From Patescibacteria group bacterium (lineage in GTDB: Bacteria > Patescibacteriota > Microgenomatia > UBA1406 > GWC2-37-13): DNA of 44,459 nt. The stretch covers positions 1 through 44,459 of the forward strand of contig JAMCTE010000021.1 of assembly GCA_023381015.1 (NCBI GenBank), given 5' to 3'. This document shows positions 2,452 to 25,794 of this stretch, in pieces; position 1 is the first letter of the stretch, and every line of letters begins with the position of its first letter. The translations under genes were made by a program, and so were the position numbers. The notes beneath the pieces are model-generated. The model did no database searches. It saw nothing but the letters and a program-made list of their open reading frames with translations, and was not told where the DNA came from.

Positions 2452-2469
2452 AAGTTTAAGTTTAACAAA

Positions 2470-3174
2470 TTATAAAGATTTGTAATAATAATTGACAATT
2501 CCTTCTGCCAAAATTTCATCACAGTTTATCATCTTATCTCCCAAAGCTTCATAGTTGATCGCCATCGGCAGTTCGGTACAGCCGAGAATGATCGCTTCGG
2601 CGCCTTCGCCAAGCAGCCTGTTGATTAGTCGCACATACTCATCCCTTTTTTCATGTTCTTTCTTGCCCGCTAAAACGCTTCTAATCATGTGGTCCAATGT
2701 TTTCAACTCCTCATTTTTAGGAATCAAAATTTTAATATTATATTTATTGAACTCTTTTTCGTAAATCCGGGATTTAATCAGGACCGGTGAACCCAAAAGA
2801 GCAACGGTCCTGAATTTTTTATCGCGGCATTTTCTTGCAACCAGTTCGACGACCGAGATAAACCCGGTTTTAGCATTCTTTTTTAATTCCGGAATTAGTA
2901 TATGAACGGTGTTACTGCCGATCGCCAGAGCCGTTGATCCGGCATTTTCTAATAGTTTGACACTCGAGCCAAGCATTTTCAGCGCCGTTTCAACTTGAGA
3001 TTTGTCAGAGATAAAGTCGGGAATAGGAATAGAGTGAATAACCATTTCCGGATAGTCATCGTTATTCTTTGCCTTGTATTCTCTCTGTGCTAACTGGACG
3101 ACTTTTTTATAGATATAATTGGTCGATTGTGGCCCGACACCACCGATCATGCCAATGATCTTCCTGTTTTTCAT
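2470..3174 (-). CDS. Aspartate/glutamate racemase family protein, first catalytic Cys replaced by Ser
   Basis: A 234-residue Asp/Glu racemase superfamily protein, beginning with '[13 protein letters not shown]' as aspartate racemases do. PLP-independent racemases use two cysteines as acid and base. The second is present (Cys199, 'ILGCTELPM'), but the first motif, normally CNT, reads 'AIGSNTVH' with Ser87 (codon AGT at 2914-2916). This predicts one-sided, altered or lost racemisation, or another activity on an amino acid. It overlaps trpB2 by 4 bp (ATGA) and precedes trpS. It is distinct from murI at 35033, which keeps both Cys. Confidence 0.85.
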
Positions 3175-4475
3175 AATTTATCGTGCAAAAACTTATCATA
3201 ACCGTTTAGATCCAAAAGACCATGTCCGGAAAGGTTGAAAAGAATTACTTTCTTTTTTCCTTCATACTTAGCCTTAACCGCCTCATCGATTGCCGATTTG
3301 ATGGCGTGGCAGGATTCAGGAGCAGGGATAATCCCTTCGGTACGGGCGAAATCGACTCCGGCCTGGAAAATTTCCTTTTGCTCGTAAGCCTTTGCTTCGA
3401 TCAACCCTTCGTCATAAAGAAACGAAATCAAAGGCGCCATGCCATGATAACGCAACCCTCCGGCGTGAATGGGTGAAGGGATGAAGTCGGAGCCCATTGT
3501 GTGCATTTTCAGTAAGGGAGTCATCATTGCCGTATCTCCAAAATCGTATTTATATTCTCCTTTTGTCAAAGAGGGACACGATGCCGGTTCGACGCCGATG
3601 AGCCGGGTTTTCTTTTTTCCTTTAATTTTCTCGGTTAAAAAAGGAAAGGCGATGCCGGCAAAGTTGCTGCCGCCGCCGACGCAACCTATGATGACGTCCG
3701 GATATTCGCCGGCCTTTTCCATCTGGCGTTTTGCTTCTTGTCCGACCACGGTTTGGTGCAAAAGGACGTGATTTAAAACACTACCGAGAGAATATTTGGC
3801 GTTTTTTGTTTTGACGACGCTTTCCAAAGCTTCGCTTATCGCAATACCCAGGGACCCCGGATGATTGGGATTGGTCTTCAAAATTTTCTTTCCGAATTCG
3901 GTTAGATTTGACGGACTGGCATTGACATCGGCGCCGTACATCTGCATGACGGTTTTCCGATATGGTTTTTGAACGTACGAAACATTGACCATGAATATCT
4001 GGCATTTTAAACCGAAAAAATTACAAGCCAGGCTTAATGCGGAGCCAAACTGTCCGGCCCCGGTTTCGGCGATCAAAGTCTTTACGCCTTCTTTTTTGTT
4101 GTAATAGGCCTGGGCGATTGTCGTATTGAGTTTGTGACTGCCGGTCGGCGAGGCGCCTTCATACTTAAAATAAATATGGGCCGGAGTATCCAAAAATTTT
4201 TCCAGCCGGTAAGCTCTGAAAACCGGCGTCGGCCGGTACATTTTATAAAAATCCCTGACTTCCTCCGGAATCTTGATTTTTTCCTCGAGTGACACTTCCT
4301 GCTTGATCAGCTCCATGGGAAAAATGGCCGCAAGATCAGCGGGTCCGGCCGGCTGCTTAGTCACCGGATTCAAAGGCGGATCGGGCAATTTTCCCAGATA
4401 TTTTTTAAGGTAATAGGAAATGTTCAGGTAATGTTCCGGAATTTCATTTTCGCTTAATGTGATTTTTGTATTCAT
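3171..4475 (-). CDS. trpB: Tryptophan synthase beta-like protein, TrpB2 type
   Basis: A 434-residue fold-type II PLP enzyme. The length, the N-terminal extension and '[20 protein letters not shown]' are typical of TrpB2, the long, usually TrpA-independent beta chain. The PLP lysine is Lys115 in 'TGSHKLNT', the catalytic Glu lies in '[12 protein letters not shown]', and the phosphate-binding loop is '[10 protein letters not shown]'. The expected reaction is L-serine plus free indole giving L-tryptophan in the cytoplasm. No trpA, trpC, trpD, trpE or trpF is visible, so indole would have to come from outside or from salvage. First structural gene after the leader/attenuator, with its ATG 27 bp after the U-run. 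Confidence 0.93.
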
Positions 4476-4502: not shown

Positions 4503-4527
4503 AAAAAAAACCGCCCTTGCGGACGGC
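4503..4527 (-). terminator. Rho-independent terminator (attenuator) of the trp leader
   Basis: On the minus strand the stem CCGTCC (4526-4521), the GNRA-like loop GCAA and GGGCGG (4516-4511) are followed by eight T (4510-4503), then A and more T. It lies between the leader peptide stop and the trpB2 start codon, so it cannot be a normal gene-end terminator. It must be conditional for the operon to be expressed. Its left arm can instead pair with the upstream segment 4564-4556. Confidence 0.85.
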
Positions 4528-4564
4528 GTATTAATGACTTTAATTAATTAAAGTAGCCACCCGC
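4519..4564 (-). promoter_or_regulatory. Predicted antiterminator fold of the trp leader
   Basis: On the minus strand GCGGGTGGC (4564-4556) can form nine consecutive pairs, two of them G-U, with GCCGTCCGC (4527-4519). The latter contains the left arm of the terminator, so the two folds exclude each other. The loop contains the 18-bp palindrome, which can form its own hairpin. A third, short helix CCGC-GAA-GCGG (4571-4561) would sequester the first arm. The arrangement copies the 1:2, 2:3 and 3:4 logic of enterobacterial trp attenuators. Pairing was derived by eye, without energy calculation. Confidence 0.75.
4537..4554. repeat. 18-bp perfect palindrome, copy 2
   Basis: Identical to the copy at 553-570. 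Here it overlaps the last codons and stop of the leader peptide and would form a hairpin nested within the antiterminator loop. Two exact copies bracketing one operon are unlikely to be chance. Confidence 0.7.
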
Positions 4565-4619
4565 TTCGCGGATATACTTTCTGCCACCAATTTTTGCCAA
4601 ATAAACTGTTTTTTATCAT
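4548..4619 (-). CDS. trpL: Leader peptide with tandem Trp codons (trpL-like)
   Basis: A 23-codon ORF (ATG at 4619-4617, TAA at 4550-4548) between trpR and trpB2, far shorter than standard gene callers accept. It contains 'GKNWWQKVY' with adjacent TGG codons at positions 11 and 12 and a third Trp at 21. The U-tailed terminator follows 20 bp after the stop. This is the standard design of ribosome-mediated trp attenuation: with scarce Trp-tRNA a ribosome stalls on Trp11-12 and frees 4564-4556 for the antiterminator. A ribosome that reaches the stop masks that segment, so the terminator forms. There is no Shine-Dalgarno sequence. It is convincing by architecture, though no protein homology is possible at this length. 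Confidence 0.85.
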   Translation of the reverse strand: MIKNSLFGKNWWQKVYPRSGWLL

Positions 4620-4650
4620 ATGTTTATATTGTTGTGACAAGCCGATATAC

Positions 4651-4663
4651 AACCTCCGAGGTT
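4651..4663. repeat. Short inverted repeat between trpR and trpL
   Basis: AACCTC-C-GAGGTT is a perfect 6+1+6 inverted repeat 22 bp downstream of the trpR stop. It has no T-run, so it does not look like an efficient terminator, and transcription from the trpR promoter could continue into the leader. It may be a pause hairpin or a binding site. Confidence 0.4.
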
Positions 4664-4685
4664 ATTTTTGGCCTGTCATAATAGC

Positions 4686-4931
4686 CTAAATATTCCTAAA
4701 TCTTCCTAGTTTAATTTCTCTAGATCCTCTCGTTACCGTCGCGACGCCAACCTTTAATCGGCGGGCGATCTCCTGGTGGGGGAGGCCGGATTTTATCAAT
4801 TTTACGATTTGTAACCTGGATTCCAACTCCGCCAATTCTTTCGGAGTGAGAATTCCCTTCAAAAACTCGAGCATTTCTCGGGGCGACTTTTGCTTGAGAA
4901 ATGCTTTGACCAACTCCCCTACTTTGTCCAT
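4686..4931 (-). CDS. trpR: Trp repressor (TrpR) homologue
   Basis: An 81-residue TrpR-family protein. Compared from memory with E. coli TrpR it keeps 'ILTPKE' (Thr29, equivalent of Thr44), 'SRLQIV' (Arg39, Arg54 equivalent) and 'GVATVTRGS' (Arg68, Arg84 equivalent). These are the residues that contact L-Trp and the reading-helix end. This separates it from YerC-type paralogues, which lack TRGS. It should bind operator DNA as a dimer with Trp as corepressor. I chose the ATG at 4931 because the upstream ATG at 4946 lies inside the -10 box. The mRNA is nearly leaderless. First gene of the trp region, directly upstream of trpL-trpB2. Confidence 0.9.
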   Translation of the reverse strand: MDKVGELVKAFLKQKSPREMLEFLKGILTPKELAELESRLQIVKLIKSGLPHQEIARRLKVGVATVTRGSREIKLGRFRNI

Positions 4932-4941
4932 ACGGTATACT

Positions 4942-4970
4942 ATCATACTAGTATGTTATCAAAATGTCAA
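4942..4970 (-). promoter_or_regulatory. trpR promoter with overlapping CTAG palindrome operator
   Basis: On the minus strand TTGACA (4970-4965), a 17-bp spacer and TATGAT (4947-4942) form a near-perfect sigma-70 promoter. Its predicted start is within a few bases of the trpR ATG at 4931. The perfect palindrome CATACTAGTATG (4944-4955) covers most of the -10 box and the spacer. It contains ACTAGT, the core that occurs twice in the E. coli trp operator. Autoregulation by TrpR and control of the whole operon are therefore likely. Confidence 0.8.
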
Positions 4971-25356: not shown

Positions 25357-25794
25357 CTATATTCCAAAAATTTTTTCTTTGTTTGTTTTAATCTTACTTT
25401 CCCAAGCGGATTTCCAGTTTGTTCCCGGTAATCCAGGATGATAAATATCATTAAAGATCTCTTTTAGAAATAAAGAAATTTTTTCGATTTTAACAATGTT
25501 CCTGAAAGTTGGGACAATTCCGTCACTTTTTTCCATAATCAATGCGAATTTTGAAACGGTTGAGGAAGAAACCTTAAGGCGATCACAAATGCTATAATAT
25601 TCAATCTTCTTCATTAGAAGATAAATTATTGCCACTCGCTTGGCTAGCATTATTCTTTCCGCGGGCGACAAAAGGTCAAACATGACCTTCATAAATTCTT
25701 CCTGAGAAGATTTCTTACCCATAATTTCAAAAAATAAACTAAATAATTTACTCAAAAGCTCTTCGCTTAATTTAAAACGTGAGTTTCTAACCAT
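25357..25794 (-). CDS. TrpR-superfamily (YerC-like) helix-turn-helix protein
   Basis: 145 residues with a central TrpR/YerC-type domain: 'DLLSPAERIMLAKRVAIIYL' and the HTH 'YYSICDRLKVSSSTVSKFAL'. The Arg that equals TrpR Arg54 is present ('AKRVAI'), but the TRGS motif is replaced by 'VSKFA', so Trp binding is unlikely. The C-terminal 50 residues are not recognised. AT-rich codon use. A 26-bp palindrome touches its start codon and another lies just after its stop, so autoregulation is plausible. It is on the opposite strand to the dcw cluster. Confidence 0.75.
   Translation of the reverse strand: MVRNSRFKLSEELLSKLFSLFFEIMGKKSSQEEFMKVMFDLLSPAERIMLAKRVAIIYLLMKKIEYYSICDRLKVSSSTVSKFALIMEKSDGIVPTFRNIVKIEKISLFLKEIFNDIYHPGLPGTNWKSAWESKIKTNKEKIFGI

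Follow-up and report, generated by a model that had tools for sequence, protein, structure and literature searches.

Does a patescibacterial trpR homolog act as a tryptophan-dependent repressor of its own operon, and does a Trp-codon attenuator downstream of the gene provide a second level of control? The window, that is, the whole 44,459-nt stretch of DNA that was analyzed, belongs to a 1.06-Mb genome (84% complete) placed among Candidatus Roizmanbacteria-like Patescibacteria, whose TrpR shares 73-83% identity with the closest named records. Patescibacteria are tiny bacteria, most of which have not been cultured. We examined in turn the layout of the operon, its leader region, the encoded protein, and the promoter site that this protein would recognize.

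Layout of the trpR operon and its promoter

The operon reads trpR-trpL-trpB2-racemase-trpS on the minus strand. The first gene (4686-4931) encodes an 81-aa TrpR-type repressor of the Pfam Trp_repressor family. Downstream of the leader ORF trpL lie trpB2 (3171-4475), which specifies a TrpB-like PLP enzyme (NF009057/TIGR01415), the gene of an Asp/Glu-type amino-acid racemase (2470-3174), whose start overlaps the trpB2 stop, and the tryptophanyl-tRNA synthetase gene trpS (988-2451). Profile matches revealed an N-terminal tRNA-editing (YbaK-like) domain joined to the synthetase in the trpS product, and full-length matches in two other loci (L026 and L027) suggest that this fusion is common to relatives. 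Just upstream of trpS, a promoter-like TTGTCA-18-TATAAT sequence (2469-2498, minus strand; score 11/12) may provide this gene with a promoter of its own, besides that of the operon.

The trpR promoter consists of a −35 TTGACA (4965-4970) separated by 17 bp from a −10 TATGAT (4942-4947), both on the minus strand. It scores 11/12, the joint best promoter-like score between positions 2000 and 8000, and is thus among the two best such sites of the surrounding 6 kb. The first-pass annotation of this DNA had recognized the promoter together with an overlapping palindrome, CATACTAGTATG, and both were confirmed. An in-frame ATG upstream, at position 4946, falls inside the −10 box; trpR more likely starts at ATG 4931, because the orthologs align from this Met onward, in the motif M[DN]KVGEL or close to it. 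The trpR mRNA is therefore predicted to be nearly leaderless, with a 5′ UTR of probably a few nucleotides as judged from the distance of 10 between the −10 box and the ATG.

From the trpR stop (4686) to the terminator of the attenuator (4527-4510), the minus strand contains no intrinsic terminator, in agreement with the earlier annotation. A strong stem-loop does lie between trpR and trpL (4635-4678, minus strand); it lacks a T run and is not a terminator. Several relatives carry hairpin-like sequences at the equivalent place, and in other relatives the leader start and the trpR stop share a direct ATGA, an overlap suggestive of translational coupling between trpR and the leader.

Gene content around trpR

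Profile searches for the trpA, trpC, and chorismate-binding (trpE) families yielded no match over cut-off in the host genome or in ten relatives, of which eight are 90% complete or more, whereas all 14 control genomes returned the trpA, trpC, and trpE families. The tryptophanase family (Pfam Beta_elim_lyase) gave no more than sub-threshold matches in the host genome. The operon is therefore probably devoted to tryptophan salvage, as in the trpRBA operon of Chlamydia. TrpB2 may use indole, and the enzyme encoded here would make tryptophan from a supplied precursor, perhaps indole.

The distribution of trpR within the genus follows that of its neighbor: the 13 genomes with trpR have it adjacent to trpB or trpB2, and the other seven have neither gene (trpR in 0/7). 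A family member (G037, locus L023) carries a more distant trpB2 without TrpR. Across a wider set of loci, the same cassette precedes trpB2, trpB, trpBA, trpE-GD, or trpS. One genome (G016) holds two copies of the trpR-trpL-trpB2 cassette (L014 and L025).

A Trp-codon leader and predicted mutually exclusive hairpins

The leader ORF trpL, MIKNSLFGKNWWQKVYPRSGWLL (4548-4619, minus strand), contains consecutive Trp codons at 4589-4584 and has equivalents in relatives. On this strand, segment 2 of the putative attenuator, GCGGGTGGC (4556-4564), is complementary to segment 3 (4519-4527) at nine positions if G-U pairs are counted, and segments 3 and 4 form an intrinsic terminator stem-loop (4510-4527) followed by a T run. 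This succession of trpR, Trp-Trp leader, and terminator-antiterminator recurs in the 14 same-family loci, namely, the window and thirteen further loci carrying trpR and trpB2. We folded these leaders with the ribosome footprint blocked, footprint sizes being assumed. The computation yielded the terminator in 14/14 loci when the ribosome occupied the stop codon and an antiterminator in 11/14 when it was stalled at a Trp codon; the remaining three (L013, L016, and L020) exhibited no switch in the stall-constrained folding. In the window, only a stall at the second Trp codon produced the switch. Thus, computed folding predicts antiterminator and terminator structures that exclude each other behind a Trp-codon leader, as befits an attenuator.

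The association extends beyond the family. In 33 of 78 loci (6.8% of shuffles), trpR is followed by a leader of 8-40 aa that includes two or more Trp codons, and leader plus terminator occur together in 31 of the 78 wider loci and in none of 1,560 shuffles. The Rfam Trp_leader model (RF00513) hits the right place and strand with 17.2 bits, short of its gathering score of 41. In three loci (L055, L063, and L102), a Trp codon is found among the last codons of trpR itself, which runs straight into attenuator-like hairpins; stall-constrained folding switched the structure in L102 and not in L055 or L063.

The trpR product and its likely ligand

The protein matches the Pfam Trp_repressor family (PF01371) with 65.7 bits (cut-off 27). 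Its score with the NCBIfam TrpR equivalog model (TIGR01321), 46.2 bits, lies below the cut-off of 67.25, and for this reason we name it TrpR-type and do not file it as an equivalog. The helix at residues 63-74 is its last, so that the C-terminal helix F is absent. Among the positions that we take, partly from general knowledge, to line the Trp pocket, Leu43, Thr44, Arg54, Val58, Arg84, and Gly85 are kept, Leu41 is replaced by Gly, and Ser88 by Glu.

This last replacement bears on the ligand, since a repressor could bind the predicted site and respond mainly to indole or another aromatic compound in place of L-Trp. Glu occupies position 88 in 79/79 patescibacterial proteins, the same position is varied in solved ligand variants of E. 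coli TrpR, of which S88Y was solved with indole-3-acetic acid, and indole as a potential TrpB2 substrate, along with the lack of upstream Trp-pathway families over cut-off, would fit such a preference. However, the pocket arginines and Gly85 are retained, the Trp-codon attenuator indicates that the operon responds to tryptophan supply, and relatives have the same operator before trpE-GD. A different principal ligand is hence unlikely, and L-Trp remains the favored effector.

Less probable still is that the protein is a histidine-sensing regulator of the HisR/YerC type with incidental trp neighbors. HisR is also a Trp_repressor family member in Pfam, and the NCBI YerC model (TIGR02531) scores 35.1 bits; this is below its cut-off of 42.2, and the TrpR model scores higher. 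The fold does not discriminate: the AF2 model (pLDDT 93) has as its best Foldseek match in the PDB the complex of E. coli TrpR with a half-site (1trr; TM 0.80), with E-values of ~1e-3 for so short a protein, and HisR structures score so close behind that fold alone does not decide between the two. The residues equivalent to Thr44, Arg54, and Arg84 of E. coli TrpR, cited in the first-pass annotation, are indeed kept, but they are not diagnostic of TrpR because solved HisR/YerC proteins equally possess them (PMC9413887). Discrimination came from six other positions, Leu43, Val58, Gly85, Thr83, Val79, and Gly78, at which the window protein and almost every one of the 79 patescibacterial proteins carry TrpR-like residues (13 of these have Ile at position 58, and either Val or Ile occurs at position 79), whereas HisR references have Cys, Ala, Val, Ser, Thr, and Ser, respectively. 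Moreover, the neighbors are trp and not his genes, the predicted operator is of the TrpR type and not cacTTTAnnnnnnTAAAgtg (TTTA-N6-TAAA), and a separate YerC-type paralog scoring over the model cut-off exists on contig C34. Residues, motif, and neighbors together led us to reject the HisR/YerC identity; at the sequence level, residues of the pocket and the HTH included, the protein is TrpR-type, not HisR-type. In a tree built on 82 columns, it groups with other CPR TrpRs, and HisR/YerC proteins and long paralogs fall apart from them, in a topology with most forks unsupported and a very long E. coli branch.

The long paralogs form a group of three proteins of 142-145 aa (window 25357-25794; L008 2237-2665; L009 4314-4745) that combine a divergent Trp_repressor domain with a conserved C-terminal extension. 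The YerC/YecD (HisR-like) paralog on C34 (L007 192-485) is transcribed divergently from an aromatic amino acid lyase gene (789-2354), with the palindrome TTAACACGTTAA in between.

A conserved predicted operator on the −10 box

TrpR operators follow a rule of GNACT half-sites with an 8-bp spacer (PMC9413887). Comparison of the promoters of the same-family loci disclosed as the conserved element TACTAGTATACTAGTA, which comprises two ACTAGT-like units 8 bp apart with the dyad axis in the −10 hexamer, and not the CTAG-centered 12-mer CATACTAGTATG (4944-4955) that the first-pass annotation had taken for the operator. A conserved site at the −10 box thus stands, with a different axis: the operator is likely the 16-bp TACT-N8-AGTA dyad at 4938-4953 (minus strand; TACTAGTATGATAGTA), whose axis lies on the −10 box and whose upstream half-site is contained in the 12-mer. 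The window copy matches the consensus at 14 of 16 positions; its outer ACT-N8-AGT is preserved, and the right half-site departs from the consensus in its inner part, reading GATAGT where ACTAGT is expected. In place of the outer G of GNACT, most of these sites have A.

We scanned 90 bp upstream of trpR in 81 related, and thus non-independent, loci, that is, the window plus 80 loci from named genomes, nearly all of them Patescibacteria. A match of at least 13/16 to TACTAGTATACTAGTA was found in 94% of the loci compared with 0.5% of dinucleotide shuffles, and the ACT-N8-AGT core in 57/81 loci compared with 4.6% of shuffles. A TTGAC promoter with a 16-18-bp spacer was recognized in 72 of the 81 loci (17 bp in 59 of these). 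In 48 of the 72, the −10 box sits at offset 6 of the 16-mer, and in 14 more at offset 14, one 8-bp period later, which makes 62/72 with one or the other. Many loci display a third half-site one period upstream, an arrangement that would suit tandem TrpR dimers. The site that the first-pass annotation expected to be conserved before orthologous trpR genes is therefore kept across Patescibacteria. That it arose by chance in an AT-rich promoter is scarcely credible and rejected for the family, given these frequencies and its conservation in fixed register with the −10 box over lineages with just ~50-60% protein identity, even if the 12-mer at up to two mismatches has only 2 matches in the window against 0.36 expected, a count equaled in 6 of 100 shuffles. 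The 12-mer, which has no second match in the 1.06-Mb genome when one mismatch is allowed, is by itself not far beyond chance; its placement and conservation carry the weight.

A scan by DNA pattern only supported the association from the opposite direction. Among 374 genomes of the class, 39 carry the 16-mer at up to one mismatch, compared with 3 for a reversed control, and in 13 of the 20 loci fetched a TrpR ORF follows it directly. The remaining seven, which we set aside, have no clear TrpR adjacent, and most hold a different, longer palindrome. A 24-bp palindrome, TACTAATATACTAGTATATTAGTA, recurs in L157, L164, L166, and L172 (near 1493-1524), from other Patescibacteria with no TrpR gene nearby.

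In the host genome, no site other than that of trpR comes within two mismatches of the operator consensus; a second one, as expected of a wider regulon, was looked for and not found. In 18 genomes scanned at up to three mismatches, the sites with at most two mismatches among the matches listed are at trpR, with the exception of one in G069 that lies elsewhere. TrpR therefore has the appearance of a local autoregulator, acting on the operon to which its gene belongs.

Probable repression and attenuation in series

The elements that can be read from the DNA are a conserved ACT-N8-AGT predicted operator on the −10 box, a Trp-Trp leader, predicted mutually exclusive hairpins, and a trpR-trpL stretch free of terminators. 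They make it very probable that trpR heads a tryptophan-salvage operon under TrpR autorepression and Trp-codon attenuation acting in series; the recurrence of leader and terminator and the stall-constrained folding lend support to this order of repressor and attenuator, which the first-pass annotation had proposed. With ample tryptophan, the Trp-loaded TrpR dimer would bind the dyad and block RNA polymerase, thereby repressing its own gene and the whole operon, while in transcripts initiated despite repression trpL would be translated and transcription would end at the terminator. As tryptophan falls, TrpR would leave the operator, and when charged tRNA-Trp is scarce, the ribosome would stall at the Trp codons and the antiterminator would form, permitting transcription of trpB2 and the genes after it. 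Since trpR lies upstream of the attenuator, it would be autoregulated but not attenuated.

A broader proposition, which we advance tentatively and judge a little less than evenly probable, is that Patescibacteria widely carry a compact, self-contained Trp control cassette in which trpR under its own E. coli-type operator, followed directly by a Trp-codon attenuator, precedes whichever Trp gene the lineage kept, with trpR doubling as the leader peptide in L055, L063, and L102.

To our knowledge, few Patescibacteria (CPR) transcription factors have a predicted ligand and operator. This TrpR has a clear physiological role and a strongly conserved predicted site, the Trp-codon attenuator points independently to its signal, and the system extends TrpR plus attenuation to a distant, genome-reduced group. 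The findings suggest that these cells, although they lack most of the pathway, have two ways of sensing a shortage of tryptophan. A search of the open-access literature yielded no earlier description of TrpR in Patescibacteria/CPR, a weak indication of novelty.

Relation to known systems

The gene set under control, which the first-pass annotation regarded as very different from that of E. coli, is not unprecedented, for the trpR-IGR-trpBA operon of Chlamydia trachomatis is a close analog: a trpR-led salvage operon in which TrpR controls the promoter upstream of trpR (PMC6504234, PMC7755916). The patescibacterial operon resembles it in the one-operon layout headed by trpR, the salvage role, here probable, and the TrpR-controlled promoter, here predicted. 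In contrast, the chlamydial IGR uses YtgR, and the chlamydial TrpL, which is unvalidated, has 59 aa without consecutive Trp codons (PMC7755916), whereas the patescibacterial operon combines a short leader peptide of the classic Trp-Trp kind with TrpB2 as its enzyme. HisR/YerC regulators (TIGR02531) share the Pfam family, the fold, a 20-bp palindromic site, and common autoregulation, and differ in pocket residues, motif, and the histidine genes that they accompany.

A parallel in promoter design is the E. coli trpEDCBA operon, with a TTGACA placed 17 bp from the −10 box, an ACT-N8-AGT dyad centered on the latter, a TrpR-type repressor, and a TrpL attenuator made of a Trp-Trp leader peptide and alternative hairpins. 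In MG1655, the trp promoter reads TTGACA-17-TTAACT inside the 16-mer AACTAGTTAACTAGTA, with the −10 box at offset 6. On the other hand, trpR of E. coli is located away from the trp operon and encodes a 108-aa protein with the C-terminal helix F, whereas patescibacterial trpR is the first gene of its operon, encodes 81 aa from a message predicted to be nearly leaderless, and is followed by trpB2-racemase-trpS as the regulated genes. The two-step control of E. coli thus seems to be at work in a distant lineage as well, where a single operon would contain it. This raises the question of whether the E. coli and patescibacterial promoter-operators have a common ancestry or arose alike. In two gammaproteobacterial loci, from Oceanospirillum (L104) and Gilvimarinus (L105), a short TrpR is encoded directly upstream of trpE, and a half-operator, GTACTAGTAC, lies shortly before the start codon.
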